From Pseudomonas sp. Q2-TVG4-2 (GTDB lineage: Bacteria > Pseudomonadota > Gammaproteobacteria > Pseudomonadales > Pseudomonadaceae): a stretch of DNA of 64,000 nucleotides. The notes beneath the pieces are model-generated. The model saw nothing but the letters and a program-made list of their open reading frames with translations. It had not been told where the DNA came from and searched no databases. Location of the stretch: positions 62,001 through 126,000 of the forward strand of contig NZ_LGLW01000007.1 in the NCBI RefSeq assembly GCF_013620795.1, read 5' to 3'. The position numbers were made by a program, and so were the translations under genes. Shown here one piece after another: positions 46,404 through 53,265 of the stretch (within the stretch, counting starts at the first letter, position 1; the number at the start of each line of letters is the position of its first letter).

Positions 46404-46488
46404 GCGGGCCTCGGCGTTCGATGATTGGGGTTAGCCAAAACACGCTAGGCTGGGTTTCTTACAGGACGATGACGGGGGCTCGTTGCGC

Positions 46489-47278
46489 TCAGATGCAATG
46501 ATCTGTTTCGGAAATGGCCGACAAAGCGGAGATCGTGGTTCCGGCGAAGCGTATAAACGCCGTCGTCTTCTCTGCACGAGTAGCCAGATTATCCGGCAGG
46601 CCACTGAGGTAGGCGTGCCGAGCCTCATGCAGTACCGGCTGATGCTAGGGGGTAGGCGATCCAGCAGCCAGGCAGCCGCAGCATCCTTAGGCGCGATCCG
46701 GCCGGTCGAGGCGCTGTACCAGATCCGAGCCAATGCGAGCACGACATTTCGTTCATCACCCGCCCAATCCGCAGGGGCGTTCCACTGCCTGAGGGTATCG
46801 GCGAGCGCGGAGTAGAAGTCTTCCTTGGGTACAGGTTCGAAAAGCCTGTCCGCCGCCGGGCCAGCCAACGCAAGGCTTTGCTGTCTCGCCTTCGTCAATA
46901 GGATCGCAAGATCAATATCCAGAGCGGGCGGCTCGAAGACACCCGCCAGAAGGTCCTGTCGCAGCCACTCCCCGAACTGAAGGGCGCACAGGGCCGGGTA
47001 GCGCCAGGGCATCGCTTCACTGAGCGAAACAACGGTCATCTCCAGCGGCCGTTGCGCTTCGCTGTGAGCTCAAGCGAGAGTGCCCGCCGGATAGCCTCGT
47101 CGGGCGGAGCATTGACGGTAACCAGCAGATCAATGTCGCTATGCGGCTTCAGTCCACCATCATGCGCAGAGCCGAACAGGTGTATGGCCCGGAGCGTTGA
47201 TGCCAGGTGACGTTCTATGACAGCGCATGCCTGTGACACCTGTTCTTTAATCTTCACAGTGGACGTGACGTCGGTCAT
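46489..47278 (-). pseudogene. aadA-like aminoglycoside nucleotidyltransferase relic, two frameshifts
   Basis: Three segments align to AadA (aminoglycoside 3''-nucleotidyltransferase). The N-part (ATG at 47278) has the nucleotide-binding motif HLFGSA..GGLKPHSDIDLL. The middle part, from the other frame (46630-47039), has MPWRYP, FGEWLRQDLLAG, DERNVVLALARIWYS and IAPKD. The C-part, again shifted near 46640, reads QPVLHEARHAYL and ends at TGA 46489. The junction at about 47036 lacks some 7-8 codons of the family, so small deletions are the likely cause. Its start is 9 bp from an attC-like core (47282-47288), which suggests an old integron cassette. It is probably not functional. Confidence 0.82.
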
Positions 47279-47281
47279 GGT

Positions 47282-47315
47282 ACCCAACGTTGGAATTGGT
47301 GGGCTGAAGCCCACC
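47282..47315 (-). repeat. degenerate attC/REP-like half site
   Basis: ACCCAAC (47282-47288) is a valid attC core (minus strand GTTGGGT). It is followed by GGTGGGCTGAAGCCCACC, a palindrome aligned to the conserved attC stem (AAGGGGCGGGCTTTAGCCCG). The matching second core (GTTAGGC) is absent, so the cassette at 47404-47793 has no complete attC. Confidence 0.4.
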
Positions 47316-47403
47316 AAGAAACCTACACCCTCGGGTGCGATGAAATTGCGCTATGCATCAGCATAACGGCTCAGCCTCGGTGTCGGGCTTCGCCGCTTCT
47401 GCA

Positions 47404-47808: not shown

Positions 47809-47884
47809 GCCTAACGTTTGGTTAAGGGGCGGGCTTTAGCCCGTCCCAGCGAACGGAGTGAGCGGCTTGAACCGCTTGTTAGGC
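47809..47884 (-). repeat. integron attC site A
   Basis: 76-bp site with cores GCCTAAC (47809-47815) and GTTAGGC (47878-47884), and internal stem AAGGGGCGGGCTTTAGCCCG. Belongs to the 47885-48125 cassette. Confidence 0.9.
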
Positions 47885-48092
47885 AGCGGAGCAAAGCGGG
47901 CCTCATTGCCTGATGCCGCACAGTGGCCGAATGCCTTCGATGGTTCAAGCAAGCACGTGACGACTGAATCACACCGCTGCATGCCTCTGGTCGCCAGACC
48001 CGGAGCCAGGGCGAGCACAGACGACGCGCTAGATAGAAACGCAACGAACGCATATTAAAAGAGGTACAGGCGGCGGCGGGACAAACTTCCAT
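47811..48092 (-). CDS. small cassette ORF reading into attC (paralogue 1)
   Basis: 93-codon ORF, the only one in this GC-rich cassette. Its C-terminal 22 codons are encoded by attC itself (LTSGSSRSLRSLGRA, then KARPLTKR), ending at the attC core. The cassette at 51422-51656 encodes an ORF of exactly the same length that aligns without gaps (MEVC-AAA, PEACSGV-QSSR, HSATVRHQ). Conserved frame and length suggest a real protein, but the sequence between conserved blocks is divergent and no ribosome binding site is obvious. It may be a non-coding cassette. Confidence 0.3.
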   Translation of the reverse strand: MEVCPAAACTSFNMRSLRFYLARRLCSPWLRVWRPEACSGVIQSSRACLNHRRHSATVRHQAMRPALLRCLTSGSSRSLRSLGRAKARPLTKR

Positions 48093-48119
48093 GTATGCAC
48101 GAGCCTAAAAAGGAATGAC

Positions 48120-48195
48120 GCCTAACGTTTGGTTAAGGGGCGGGCTTTAGCCCGTCCCAGTGAGCGAAGCGAGCGATTTGAGCCGATTGTTAGGC
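48120..48195 (-). repeat. integron attC site B
   Basis: 76 bp. GCCTAAC (48120-48126), GTTAGGC (48189-48195). Stem AAGGGGCGGGCTTTAGCCCG. Belongs to the 48199-48651 gene cassette. Confidence 0.9.
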
Positions 48196-48198
48196 TTT

Positions 48199-48651
48199 TC
48201 AGGAGAACTCATGGAGTTCACCTTCTGTAACGTTCCACTCTAGAACCTCATGCCTCAGCTCAGCAAATGTTCGGAGTAATTTGCCAAGCCTATTTATCTG
48301 TGATGGTTCAGCACGAATACAAAAATCAAATATCTCTCGATCCGGCAGGCTCTGATTATTATTGAAGCGAAGCTGGATTGCACAGCCTCCGGCTGAGTTT
48401 GTGTTGAAAACGCGTAGTCGAAAGTAGTAAGCGGTGCGATCTTCTGGAATTTCTGAGCCGATTTCGTGAAGAAAAACATCGCTACTATGGCGCGGGAACT
48501 TCTCTAACACGCTTGCCCATTCATGAATGGCTCTCGCATTTTCATAGTATTCAAACCCGGCAGACAAGTTGCCGTTTGACGCGCTCACTACCAGATTTAA
48601 ATGGTAAGGCTCTTCATACGGATGCCTTACGATGCGGAGGTGTGGTTTCAT
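48199..48651 (-). CDS. integron cassette protein, hypothetical (150 aa)
   Basis: 150-aa soluble protein, start ATG 48651, 13 nt after the attC junction of the next cassette. No transmembrane segment. It looks like a beta-rich fold (LNLVVSASNGNLSAGFEYYE, AIQLRFNNNQSL), with no motif I recognise. The codon use is more AT-rich than in the neighbouring chromosome, as expected for a cassette of foreign origin. Its stop is 4 bp from the attC B core. Function unknown. Confidence 0.75.
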   Translation of the reverse strand: MKPHLRIVRHPYEEPYHLNLVVSASNGNLSAGFEYYENARAIHEWASVLEKFPRHSSDVFLHEIGSEIPEDRTAYYFRLRVFNTNSAGGCAIQLRFNNNQSLPDREIFDFCIRAEPSQINRLGKLLRTFAELRHEVLEWNVTEGELHEFS

Positions 48652-48657
48652 TGTTAC

Positions 48658-48746
48658 GCCTAACGATTAAGCTAACGGGCAGACAAAAGCGTAGCTTTTG
48701 GCTGTCCAGCGAACGAAGTGAGCGGCAGTTGAGCGCATTGTTAGGG
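48658..48746 (-). repeat. integron attC site C (divergent, 89 bp)
   Basis: Cores GCCTAAC (48658-48664) and GTTAGGG (48740-48746). The internal sequence (AAGCTAACGGGCAGACAAAA, GCTTTTGGCTGTCC) differs from the other seven sites, which are alike. This cassette came from another source array. Confidence 0.88.
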
Positions 48747-49325
48747 GAATATCCGCTCGTTGCCAGTAAGTGCTTTGTAGGCGTCTTTTAGCTCATTTTC
48801 AATTCTTTCTCTTTCGTGTGGTAGAAAGTCAATAAGTGAGCCGGCGCACATTCTTAAGAATGAATTGAGTTCGCCTGCCATAAGAGAGGCAAGCATATTT
48901 CTCTTTTCGGATAGAAAACTCAGTGAGTCGTATGCCTTCTCTATTTTCTCGGCAATCTCAGGCTCTTGCTCAGATAGCTCCATGAGAAATTTCGCATACC
49001 ATTCCGATTTGAATATTGGAATTGGCATTTCAAGGCGTGATTTATCTGTTGCGATTACACATGATTCATAGCCGTGTTTTAAGCATATGAATTGAAGCTC
49101 TAGGTTGGGGTGGCCTCGGTGCTCTTCTAGAAATTCAATGATTTTAAAAAATGAATCTATTGATGCGTAATTTTCTTTTATTTCCTTCCCTATAACGCGG
49201 GCATAGGCTTCTTTCCTGGATTTTTTTGATTTCTTCTTTCTTTTCCATTCGAGAATCTCTTTTGTTGCAAACAGCAAAACTGTTGCAATTACAGAGGCGG
49301 GAAGTATTTGAGTAAGGCTGAGCAC
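48741..49325 (-). CDS. integron cassette protein, membrane-anchored (194 aa)
   Basis: 194-aa protein with GTG start behind AGGA. One N-terminal transmembrane helix (about residues 4-24, LTQILPASVIATVLLFATKE), then a very basic stretch (EWKRKKKSKKSRKEAYAR) and an acidic, helical cytoplasmic part (SFFKIIEFLEEHRGHPN, LSEQEPEIAEKIEKAYDSL). The stop codon lies inside its own attC core. No known family. Low GC, unlike the host. Confidence 0.75.
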   Translation of the reverse strand: MLSLTQILPASVIATVLLFATKEILEWKRKKKSKKSRKEAYARVIGKEIKENYASIDSFFKIIEFLEEHRGHPNLELQFICLKHGYESCVIATDKSRLEMPIPIFKSEWYAKFLMELSEQEPEIAEKIEKAYDSLSFLSEKRNMLASLMAGELNSFLRMCAGSLIDFLPHERERIENELKDAYKALTGNERIFP

Positions 49326-49341
49326 GATGATTCCTATATTT

Positions 49342-49418
49342 CCCTAACGTTTGGTTAAGGGGCCGGCTTTAGCCGGTCCCGAGAGAGCGAAGCGAACGAC
49401 TTGAACCAGTAGTTAGGA
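49342..49418 (-). repeat. integron attC site D
   Basis: 77 bp. CCCTAAC (49342-49348, left core, derived from the next cassette) and GTTAGGA (49412-49418). Internal stem AAGGGGCCGGCTTTAGCCGG. Belongs to the 49413-49904 gene. Confidence 0.9.
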
Positions 49419-49904
49419 GCCATTTTTCAGGAGCTCATTGTATTCTTTAAGGGCTTGCTGCATGCGCTCTTCGGTGAATCCGCTTTTGATCATTACGGGC
49501 ATTACGAATTTATCAAGACTTTGGTCTGTTTCCTCGAAGAAGCTCCGGTAGTTCTCTAGGCTCTCAATGACTTCCTCATATTTTCCCGCCGCCAGCATGT
49601 CCATGGCCTCTCTGAAGAAATGATGAGCTAGATATGCTCGTTTGTTTCTTGATCCGGTGAGTTTTTCTTCAAGGTCTGCTGGTAAAGTGGAAACTGACTT
49701 AAGTGCTTTTATTAAATTCCCAAGAGTTTTATCAAAATTGGATGCGTAGTAATTCTCGTATTCTTCGCCAGTCCATTTTCCTTTAGTGCGAGGAATTAGG
49801 TCTAAGAAAATCATGGCGTTAGCAATACCGTGCTCTAAGCATTGAGCAAAGTACATTGCTGCTCCGTAATAGGCACATACTTCCTTGAAGTCCTCTCCGT
49901 CCAC
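49413..49904 (-). CDS. integron cassette protein, HEPN-like (163 aa)
   Basis: Helical 163-aa protein. The motif RNKRAYLAHHFF contains R86-NKRAYLA-H94 and R89-AYLA-H94, the R-x4-6-H type that in HEPN ribonucleases forms the active site. Flanking helices (GAAMYFAQCLEHGIANAMIF) fit. The chosen start is GTG at 49904, 8 nt downstream of TTAGGAG, so the attC junction itself supplies the Shine-Dalgarno. A TTG two codons upstream is only 2-3 nt from it. HEPN identity is inferred from one motif and helical pattern; it may instead be a binding domain. Confidence 0.65.
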   Translation of the reverse strand: MDGEDFKEVCAYYGAAMYFAQCLEHGIANAMIFLDLIPRTKGKWTGEEYENYYASNFDKTLGNLIKALKSVSTLPADLEEKLTGSRNKRAYLAHHFFREAMDMLAAGKYEEVIESLENYRSFFEETDQSLDKFVMPVMIKSGFTEERMQQALKEYNELLKNGS

Positions 49905-49913
49905 AGGCAATGC

Positions 49914-49989
49914 TCCTAACGTTTGGTTAAGGGGCCGGCTTTAGCCGGTCCCAGTGAGCAAAGCGAACGGTTTGAACCAGTTGTTAGGC
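49914..49989 (-). repeat. integron attC site E
   Basis: 76 bp. TCCTAAC (49914-49920), GTTAGGC (49983-49989). Stem AAGGGGCCGGCTTTAGCCGG. Belongs to the 49984-50664 gene. Confidence 0.9.
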
Positions 49990-50664
49990 GATTTCAAAGC
50001 TGTCTGCGTGATAAGCGCCAAACAAGACCTCTTCGGCTGTTTCTTCTTCATGGTTATCAAAAAAGGCGTAGTGCGTAGCGCCAGCTTCTTTGGCGATTTC
50101 TATTATGTAATTGCTGACTTGCTTTGGTAAATACTCGGAAATGGCAACCGCGAATTTTGGTGGTGGAAGATCAGGATTACCAAATGACGACACTCCTAGA
50201 ATGTCTTTACCTCTTAAAACAGATTTGACTTCGTCACGGCCGGGTAAGAATTCGTTGACTCCGAAGAGTACTCCGTTCAAAAGTTCACCACTAGATCCCG
50301 GCGCTTGTCTTTCAGTGACTGCTACTTCTAGGCTAGCAATTTTCTGGGAAAGCTCAGTAAGCCGGGCGTCTTCTTTTCTGACGGAGATTGGTTCATTTGT
50401 TTTCTGGGATAGATACGTTGAATAATACGAGTCTTCCTGTAGCTCTGGGCGAAACCTGGTTTGCAAGAGGAACACTGCTATAAGAAATATAGGGACATTT
50501 ACAATTGCAGCACCAACTAGTGCCAAGGACTCAAAAGATCCTGTGGGCATCTGTGATGCGGCGAAGAGAAAACAAGATTCGACTGAAAAAAGGCCTGCAA
50601 GCCAAGCGCCAAGTAGCTGTATTGGTTTGTTTATTTTTTCTGGAATTATAGTTTGCTTGCTCAA
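49984..50664 (-). CDS. integron cassette protein, two-helix membrane (226 aa)
   Basis: 226-aa protein with two N-terminal transmembrane helices (about 18-38 and 45-68) followed by a cytoplasmic part: a short coiled coil (LTELSQKIASLEVAV) and a globular C-terminus (VSNYIIEIAKEAGATHYAFF, NHEEETAEEVLFGA). The start is a TTG; a five-codon mini-ORF ATG...TGA upstream overlaps it (TTGA), suggesting re-initiation. The stop lies in the attC E core. Low GC. No family recognised. Confidence 0.7.
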   Translation of the reverse strand: MSKQTIIPEKINKPIQLLGAWLAGLFSVESCFLFAASQMPTGSFESLALVGAAIVNVPIFLIAVFLLQTRFRPELQEDSYYSTYLSQKTNEPISVRKEDARLTELSQKIASLEVAVTERQAPGSSGELLNGVLFGVNEFLPGRDEVKSVLRGKDILGVSSFGNPDLPPPKFAVAISEYLPKQVSNYIIEIAKEAGATHYAFFDNHEEETAEEVLFGAYHADSFEIA

Positions 50665-50684
50665 TACTTTAATCTCATGATTTC

Positions 50685-50760
50685 GCCTAACGTTTGGTTA
50701 AGGGGCGGGCTTTAGCCCGTCCCAGTGAGCGAAGCGAACGGTTTGAACCAGTTGTTAGGT
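50685..50760 (-). repeat. integron attC site F
   Basis: 76 bp. GCCTAAC (50685-50691), GTTAGGT (50754-50760). Stem AAGGGGCGGGCTTTAGCCCG. Belongs to the 50766-51323 gene. Confidence 0.9.
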
Positions 50761-50765
50761 GGCAA

Positions 50766-51323
50766 CTACGCCGCTCTTATATGAGCGGTTAGCGCTGAAG
50801 CCAACTCGACATAAGCTCTTGCATCATTCTCGCTAAGGTTCAAATCCTCTGCATGCGCAGCTTTATTGCGAAGTTGCTTTAACTTTTTGAATGTTTCTAG
50901 TTGCTTATGATTAATAACCTTGCATTGGAGCAAGTATTCGCCAAGCTTTGGGTAGTTCCTGACGGCTTCGTTTGGTGGTGCGCTCCAGAACGAACTTGCA
51001 ACCGCCGTTGCTGCGGACTCAACCTCTAACCAAGCTTCCATTACCGCTGCGCGCGTTGAGAAGTTTACTAGTTGAAGTAGCCGATTCTCTGACGCGGCTT
51101 CTGTGGTTGTTTGGTGCTCTTTTGTAGGTGTTGTGATGGTTGCGTCGGCCTTTAGCTCTGCTACCTCTCTGGAAAACTCTAATTCTAGCTCTTTATATTT
51201 TAGCTTTCTAAGAAATGGGATTAGTTCTGCAATAGGCTTTTTAAGCATGAGTGCAAGAAGAACTACGGCCGCAGGCCATGCCGCTGACTCGATTGCTTTG
51301 GAAATGAAAGTGAGGGCGTCCAT
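50766..51323 (-). CDS. integron cassette protein, membrane-anchored HEPN/DUF4145-like (185 aa)
   Basis: 185-aa protein. One N-terminal transmembrane helix (about 12-28, AAWPAAVVLLALML), a charged linker, and a helical C-terminal domain. The sequence LKQLRNKAAHAEDLNLS carries R152-NKAA-H157, an R-x4-H motif like the HEPN active site and typical of DUF4145-like domains. GGAG sits just upstream of the ATG. HEPN domains in defence modules are commonly RNases, but here the function is inferred from motif and helical pattern only. Confidence 0.7.
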   Translation of the reverse strand: MDALTFISKAIESAAWPAAVVLLALMLKKPIAELIPFLRKLKYKELELEFSREVAELKADATITTPTKEHQTTTEAASENRLLQLVNFSTRAAVMEAWLEVESAATAVASSFWSAPPNEAVRNYPKLGEYLLQCKVINHKQLETFKKLKQLRNKAAHAEDLNLSENDARAYVELASALTAHIRAA

Positions 51324-51345
51324 GTCTCCAATTTTTCCTTTTGCT

Positions 51346-51421
51346 ACCTAACGTTTGGTTAAGGGGCGGGCGTTAGCCCGTCCCAGCGAACGGAGTGAGC
51401 GGCTTGAACCGCTTGTTAGGC
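51346..51421 (-). repeat. integron attC site G
   Basis: 76 bp. ACCTAAC (51346-51352, left core) and GTTAGGC (51415-51421). Stem AAGGGGCGGGCGTTAGCCCG. Belongs to the 51422-51662 cassette. Confidence 0.9.
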
Positions 51422-51629
51422 AGCGGAGCAAGCTGGGCCTCGCTGGCTGATGCCGCACAGTGGCCGAATGGCTTCGAGGGTTCAAGCCGGTACGTGATGA
51501 CTGATTCACACCGCTGCATGCTTCTGGTTGCCGGGCTCGGAGCCTAGGCAAGCACAGACGACGCGCTGGTTGGCATTGCGACGGTTGAGTACTTAAAGCG
51601 GAATGAGCGGCGGCAATACAAACTTCCAT
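51348..51629 (-). CDS. small cassette ORF reading into attC (paralogue 2)
   Basis: 93-codon ORF starting MEVCIAAAHS, the counterpart of 47811-48092. Same length, no gaps, conserved blocks ARRLC, PEACSGV, SHSATVRHQ and the attC-encoded tail. The open frame extends further upstream to 51722 through attC H, but the shared part begins here. No convincing ribosome binding site. Could be a non-coding cassette. The whole cassette is homologous to that at 47885-48119 at DNA level. Confidence 0.3.
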   Translation of the reverse strand: MEVCIAAAHSALSTQPSQCQPARRLCLPRLRARQPEACSGVNQSSRTGLNPRSHSATVRHQPARPSLLRCLTSGSSRSLRSLGRANARPLTKR

Positions 51630-51656
51630 GTGTGCACGAGCCTTAAAAAGAATGAC

Positions 51657-51731
51657 GCCTAACGTTTGGTTAAGGGGCGGGCTTAGCCCGTCCCAGTGAG
51701 CGAAGCGAACGGTTTGAATCATTTGTTAGCC
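51657..51731 (-). repeat. integron attC site H
   Basis: 75 bp. GCCTAAC (51657-51663), GTTAGCC (51725-51731). Stem AAGGGGCGGGCTTAGCCCG, one T shorter than the others. Belongs to the first (integrase-proximal) cassette, whose junction on attI is GGCTAAC. Confidence 0.9.
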
Positions 51732-51735
51732 GGGC

Positions 51736-52164: not shown

Positions 52165-52235
52165 AGGCTAACTATAATTAGACACCAAGTGGTGTAAGAC
52201 GCCGAACAGGCTTGGTGTATAACGTCCCTTGTCAT
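52161..52235 (-). CDS. attI leader ORF (24 aa)
   Basis: ATG at 52235, with AAGGAG 7 nt upstream, reads [20 protein letters not shown] to a TGA at 52161-52163. It crosses the attI crossover point and ends by overlapping the ATG of the first cassette (ATGA). This is the arrangement of ORF-11 in class 1 integrons, which supplies translation to cassettes that lack a ribosome binding site. It is below most gene-caller length limits. Confidence 0.6.
52166..52224 (-). other. attI recombination site
   Basis: The crossover core on the minus strand is GTTAGCC (plus GGCTAAC, 52166-52172). Adjacent are two direct repeats GGTGTAAGACG (52191-52201) and GGTGTATAACG (52214-52224), and the palindrome ACACC-AAGT-GGTGT (52182-52195). 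They are plausible IntI-binding direct repeats like those of attI1. Confidence 0.65.
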
Positions 52236-52301
52236 CGAGACTCTCCTTGTCTAGGCTGGGCGCTTCCGAGGGACGATGAATGTATAAGGGAGTTATACAC
52301 C
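52214..52301. repeat. 10-bp inverted repeat flanking the integrase start region
   Basis: GGTGTATAAC (52214-52223) and its perfect complement GTTATACACC (52292-52301), the latter ending at the intI start codon. The region should hold the integrase and cassette promoters. No LexA box (CTGT-N8-ACAG) is seen. Confidence 0.5.
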
Positions 52302-52302
52302 A

Positions 52303-53265
52303 TGGATGGAAAACCGAGATTACTGGATCAGGTGCGCGAGCAGATCAGGCTCAAACACTACTCGATCAGAACTGAGCGTGTCTATTGCGAGTGGGTTAAG
52401 CGCTACATCCGCTTTCACCAGTATCAACATCCGGTAGAGATGGGTGCGCCAGAGGTAGAAGCTTTTCTATCCGATCTTGCTGTTCGCCGTGATGTCTCGG
52501 CCTCGACGCAGAACCAGGCGCTGGCTGCGTTGCTTTTTCTGTACAAGCAAGTTCTCAAGCATGACCTGCCATGGTTGGGGGAAATTGTGCGCGCCAAGAA
52601 GCCGGCCCGCTTACCGGTGGTGCTTTCGATAGACGAGGTGCAGCAGATACTTGGGCTGCTGGATGGCCAGGTCGGGCTTGTGGCGCGGCTTCTATACGGT
52701 GGAGGAATGCGCCTGATGGAGGGGGTTCGCCTTCGCGTTAAGGATGTTGATTTTGCTCGTAACGAATCATCATTCGCGACGGTAAGGGCCAGAAGGACCG
52801 CGTCACAGTGATGCCTGCGAGTCTGGTCGGGTCGCTCAAGCAGCACATCGCCCGTACCCGAGCTATCCATGATCTGGAATTGTCCGAGGGCAGAGGAGAC
52901 GTCTACCTGCCCGATGCCTTGGCGCGCAAATATCCCAAGGCGCCTTGGGAGTGGGCGTGGCAATACGTATTTCCCGCATCTAGTCTTTCGGTGACCCGCG
53001 CAGCGGCGCGGTGCGCCGGCATCATCTTGACGAGAAGCGAGTGCAACGCGCGTTCAAGCGCGCGGTAAAAACATCTGGAATAGCCAAGCTCGCAACTCCG
53101 CATACTTTGAGGCACAGCTTCGCTACTCATTTGTTGGAAAGCGGGCAAGACATCCGCACCGTGCAGGAATTGCTGGGGCACGCTGACGTGAAGACGACGA
53201 TGATTTATACGCATGTACTCAATCGTGGCGGCTTGGCGGTATTGAGCCCTCTGGATCGAATGTAA
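52303..53265 (+). pseudogene. intI: integron integrase, two frameshifts
   Basis: Tyrosine recombinase of the IntI family, identifiable by N-terminal [29 protein letters not shown] with catalytic Arg, [13 protein letters not shown], the [14 protein letters not shown] box with catalytic His and Tyr, and the integron-specific extra region (WEWAWQYVFPA). The first frameshift is near 52765 (frame 1 ends ARNE; the real continuation [12 protein letters not shown] is in another frame). The second is near 52988 (SSLS to GDPRSG). Both fit single-base deletions outside homopolymers. Each catalytic motif is intact in its own frame, so the loss seems recent. Confidence 0.9.

Follow-up and report, generated by a model that had tools for sequence, protein, structure and literature searches.

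Two HEPN-like proteins on separate integron gene cassettes, one soluble and one membrane-tethered, are probable stand-alone endoribonucleases

Introduction

HEPN domains that keep an intact R-x4-H motif, which is located at the end of a helix, are typically dimeric RNases (PMC3710099). Two kinds of HEPN protein described by Anantharaman in 2013 bear directly on the locus considered here. The first comprises DUF4145-type proteins that combine a single membrane helix with a strict WP signature, including an example from V. cholerae, in which the WP-TM segment is proposed to sense stimuli at the cell surface and to alter the HEPN domain; the second is a separate family carried on integron cassettes (PDB 3jrt), whose members were suggested to be RNases that induce dormancy under stress (PMC3710099). 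Two further points of comparison are HepT (DUF86), the HEPN toxin of the type VII HepT-MntA toxin-antitoxin systems, with its RX4HXY motif, and HepS, a HEPN protein of the Gifsy-1 prophage (9oij).

We analysed a stretch of 64,000 nucleotides from Pseudomonas sp. Q2-TVG4-2, referred to below as the window, in which an integron carries the genes of two HEPN-like proteins, A and B, with that of a membrane protein, M, between them. Integrons have come to be regarded as reservoirs of genes for defence against phages, and for the majority of their cassettes no function has been assigned.

Results

The cassettes of the integron lie on the minus strand, from about position 52171 down to 47.4 kb or below, and their borders can be read from the sequence as G|TTAGx junctions, with seven copies of an attC family of 76 nt between 47808 and 51730. 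The gene for protein A (163 aa, 49413-49904) occupies a cassette at 49348-49919 with G|TTAGG junctions and an attC at 49342-49417, and that for protein B (185 aa, 50766-51323) a cassette at 50691-51351 with an attC at 50684-50759, which separates it from M (226 aa, 49984-50664). Further members of the repeat family lie between M and A (49913-49988) and upstream of B (51345-51420), and all of these features are on the minus strand. A, M and B are three separate cassettes with one attC each, the third to fifth of the array, and for A and B an open reading frame within attC junctions, with an integrase nearby, identifies an integron gene cassette. The gene positions and lengths given in the original prediction agree with our check of the open reading frames, and its placement of the genes in an integron is borne out by the attC copies, the junctions and the integrase gene alongside. 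Its description of a membrane-anchored B and a two-helix M also stands, as a single hydrophobic stretch was seen in B (about residues 17-38), and M has two predicted membrane helices (17-36 and 43-71) plus a C-terminal part. Family scans of M gave nothing above cut-off.

The integron integrase gene (IntI, 52212-53265, plus strand) has its coding sequence in three frames, with two frame breaks as assembled, and uninterrupted copies are present at two loci from the same genus (L105 and L094). At the distal end of the array an aadA-like (ANT(3'')) nucleotidyltransferase gene (46431-47317, minus strand) is split between two ORFs that do not share a frame. With these two genes broken, the array would be frozen in this strain, unless the assembly is in error there; the reading frames of A, M and B are intact, unlike those of the integrase and aadA-like genes. 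The product of the cassette that follows that of A (48741-49325, minus strand) is a protein of 194 aa whose N-terminus is hydrophobic; its matches to NsnC in PADLOC (E 0.0017) and to GapS2 in NCBIfam (E 0.034) are weak.

As A, M and B are adjacent, they could be read as one functional defence module, an RNase pair with a membrane partner, and the original prediction had indeed treated A and B as a pair. Their distribution makes such a module scarcely credible. A survey of 328 genomes from the same taxonomic family found A in 5 and B in 9, and the two together in the window's own genome and in none of the other 327. In a sister species, the orthologous integron, which occupies the corresponding chromosomal site, has a copy of M (94% identical) for its first cassette, with neither A nor B beside it, and the B relative (74%) of that species lies 3 Mb away. 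The cassette of A recurs at 96% identity in Pseudomonas alcaligenes MB-090714, in another array order and without adjacent M or B, and a relative at 62% is present in an integron of P. ullengensis, again without M or B. Furthermore, profile-profile comparison of A with B gave a probability of 3.5%, with an alignment confined to the motif region, which places them in different HEPN families. We therefore rejected both the RNase pair and the three-gene module in favour of separately distributed cassettes.

The integrase genes of the window and of P. alcaligenes MB-090714 are only 68% identical at the DNA level, and the 96% identity of the A cassettes despite this, together with the different array order, points to transfer of the A cassette. 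Close A relatives were found in genomes of a genus other than that of the window, and arrays of Pseudoxanthomonas and Vibrio likewise include A relatives as cassettes. Three more species of the window's genus have integron cassettes for B-type proteins that bear the WP signature. In P. alcaligenes, the cassette upstream of A (L024:2961-3914) has, by eye, the look of a restriction endonuclease, and no PADLOC model matched it.

Protein B consists of an N-terminal TM segment, a linker and a C-terminal HEPN domain. W16-P17 is invariant in the 13 aligned sequences of its family, giving the N-terminal TM helix the strict WP signature. An AlphaFold2 model built with these 13 sequences has an N-terminal helix at residues 3-61 and a C-terminal domain at 73-184, with a mean pLDDT of 80, and nearly all of its best 27 structural matches are HEPN or HEPN-superfamily entries. 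The top match is 2hsb (Z 10.8, 110 aligned, 3.4 Å), and others include MtlR (second, Z 9.8), sacsin (9.3), HepS (8.8), HepT (8.2-8.0, with 8.0 for 7bxo), Csm6 and AbiV. The predicted fold of residues 69-185 is the four-helix HEPN bundle, as seen in the first 22 matches, which run from Z 10.8 to 7, with unrelated entries at about 5. The single R-x4-H of the protein, R152-NKAA-H157, falls at the end of helix 139-157, which is the position of R-x4-6-H at the end of helix 3. DUF4145 (PF13643) was matched by eight of the nine B members scanned, at E values up to 1 (best 1.5e-7); the window protein itself gave no PF13643 match, and its genome none above cut-off.

The HEPN identity of B is therefore strong, and B shares with the WP-TM DUF4145-like proteins the single N-terminal TM helix, the invariant W-P and a HEPN domain with R-x4-H, while differing from them in being an integron cassette and, in the window, in scoring below the DUF4145 cut-off. 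HepS resembles the HEPN domain of B in structure, and B relatives likewise occur on phage contigs, but the sequence match is marginal (E 0.87) and B is TM-anchored, unlike HepS. A Csx28-like pore was also considered as a model for B on account of the TM-HEPN layout; Csx28 figured neither among the structural matches listed nor in the PADLOC lists, an absence that is compatible with Csx28 likeness.

Protein A is soluble and all-helical. Its gene starts with GTG, 8 nt downstream of AGGAG, and an alternative upstream TTG would give 165 aa. The structure predicted from 22 aligned sequences (pLDDT 92, pTM 0.82) places the only R-x4-H, R89-AYLA-H94, at the C-terminal end of helix 76-94, again the position of R-x4-6-H at the end of helix 3. 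The best structural match is the HEPN protein TM0613 (1o3u, Z 7.7, 102 aligned, 3.0 Å), a score that, like any Z below 13, is indecisive for helical bundles; HepT (7bxo) follows at Z 6.0. Single-protein sequence searches of the PDB returned nothing useful, nor did searches of a viral structure library and of phage records with A. The Foldseek E-values of the model, taken alone, are not significant and mixed helical bundles stand among its matches, as would be expected if A were a generic bundle unrelated to HEPN with a coincidental R-x4-H. We regard this as unlikely given that R89 and H94 are kept across several phyla, that models of the HEPN clan recur among the weak Pfam matches of the family (HepT-like in 9 of 22 members, and elsewhere Apea, DUF4145 and LA2681 HEPN models), and that the motif aligns in register with the R-x4-H of HepT better than a reversed control does. 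In these profile alignments A and B gave E values of 0.005 and 0.0023, against 0.17 and 0.44 for their reversed controls. On the strength of its best structural match, the recurrent HEPN-clan matches and the motif at a helix end, the HEPN identity of A is good.

Two of the described HEPN groups were examined as homes for A. A sequence relationship to the 3jrt family, which likewise places a HEPN domain on an integron cassette, was not found: a PDB-wide profile search with the 22 A members returned no HEPN chain up to E 5, so that A is not a close relative of 3jrt, and we rejected membership on this ground. 3jrt is also missing from the structural match lists, which proves nothing. As for HepT, the A motif extends to R-x4-H-x-[YF], in register with RX4HXY, and no Pfam model is matched more often in the A family than HepT-like, so that A and B might be taken for HEPN toxins of HepT/MntA-type (type VII) systems. 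This assignment is very improbable. Window A falls under the Pfam cut-off of HepT-like, and the tyrosine position is F in window A (F96) and E in B, with Y in 12 and F in 10 of the 22 A members. Moreover, no MntA-like antitoxin was found in or beside the cassettes, whereas HepT-MntA systems have MntA, and the sole nucleotidyltransferase nearby is the frame-broken aadA-like resistance gene. With no partner gene and no conserved tyrosine, we rejected a HepT-MntA toxin-antitoxin system and retain stand-alone HEPN proteins as the better description.

The presence of a motif as short as R-x4-H is weak evidence, as 10.4% of shuffles of A composition and 15.3% of those of B composition contain one, and it is the conservation of the motif that counts. 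In the A family R89 is kept in 21 of 22 sequences and H94 in all 22; in the B family R152 is kept in 13 of 13 and H157 in 12 of 13. The A sequences come from Pseudomonadota, Sulfuricurvum, Nitrospirota, Nitrospinaceae, Firmicutes, Ktedonobacteria, planctomycetes and phage contigs, and further relatives of A are present on plasmids of Vibrio, Emticicia and Streptomyces. The motif begins R-A in the window's subgroup of the A family and R-N in most members. A dN/dS of 0.08 between two Pseudomonas copies of A indicates purifying selection. The original observation of an R-x4-H in each of the two HEPN-like proteins held, and neither of the outcomes that it had named as refuting, another fold or non-conserved Arg and His, emerged when we looked for them.

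The HEPN domains could also lack catalytic activity and serve to bind RNA or protein, in the manner of MtlR or of the substrate domains of nucleotidyltransferases, with a role in regulation or in envelope stress. The second place of MtlR among the structural matches of B is in keeping with this, as is the loss of R in one A relative (L040) and of H in one B relative (L049), from which we conclude that some members of either family may be non-catalytic. For the families as a whole we think such a role improbable, though less so than a chance bundle in the case of A, as R and H persist in almost every relative despite divergence of the remaining sequence to about 25% identity. In a Nitrospirota MAG (L031:3968-5034), two A-family-like genes stand in tandem, as read by eye from the translations.

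A PADLOC scan of A, M and B gave no meaningful match to a defence model. Qat, AbiL, AbiP, Septu PtuA, type I R-M and a type II methyltransferase lie near A relatives, as do Drt8 with a type III methyltransferase and, on a viral contig, a DRT UG17-SLATT pair. At least 8 of about 27 distinct loci with A relatives have such defence neighbours, a count of proteins picked by eye that is not an enrichment figure. Near B relatives we found AbiE, an OLD/AriA-like ATPase and AbiTii, also picked by eye. As these neighbours were chosen by eye and without a baseline, they are support and not proof, and they make an anti-phage role for A and B plausible. Phage contigs, too, carry B relatives, one of which is flanked by genes that resemble tail genes (read by eye). 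On one phage contig a B relative of 53% identity is placed like an accessory gene among tail-like genes (L016:1044-2319), next to a gene on the opposite strand for a 221-aa membrane-protein-like product. Of the phage protein families, PHROG 12893 was matched by 21 of 22 A members and PHROG 18019 by 13 of 13 B members, and neither group is annotated with a function.

Discussion

We propose, with a probability of about 0.7, that A and B are independently acquired cassettes and that the product of each is a stand-alone endoribonuclease with a HEPN fold, that of A soluble and that of B membrane-tethered and of the WP-TM/DUF4145 type. In this model the HEPN domains would dimerise and the R/H pair would cleave RNA. 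The membrane helix of B would keep its HEPN domain on the membrane's inner face and probably senses disturbance of the envelope. Both proteins may be activated by stress or infection, and the benefit to the cell would be growth arrest or phage defence. The two cassettes thereby gain a biochemical hypothesis that can be tested, namely R/H-dependent cleavage of RNA.

The original prediction presented the two proteins as a candidate undescribed pair, and as to novelty this is only partly right. The architecture of B, the WP-TM DUF4145-like HEPN protein, and the carriage of HEPN domains by integron cassettes were both described in 2013 (PMC3710099); for A, family scans found no Pfam or NCBIfam name, and its family has no curated one. 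Both proteins are a known kind of effector, with a function that we infer. What is new for B is the repeated use of the WP-TM HEPN type as a cassette, seen in at least four species within a single genus. Integrons, phages and the vicinity of defence genes are recurrent settings of both families. More tentatively, the A family may be an unnamed, antitoxin-free, single-gene HEPN RNase defence family that crosses phyla by way of integrons, plasmids, prophages and defence islands. Should A prove to be a defence RNase, a function would be gained for a family that lacks a curated name and extends from Bacteroidota to Streptomyces.

Expression of the A and B cassettes is uncertain, as we sought a strong promoter for them and found none, and promoter-like sites are no commoner than chance (6 matches, with 4.6 expected). 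An Rfam scan gave no match within the array. A cassette of about 310 bp that holds no convincing gene is present twice in the array (51347-51735 and 47809-48200, minus strand; 83% identical) and also in integrons from two further species of the window's genus (L096 and L097), with a mean column identity of 86% over the four copies. It stands directly upstream of a B-type cassette both in the window and in L097, and could be a promoter or small-RNA cassette.
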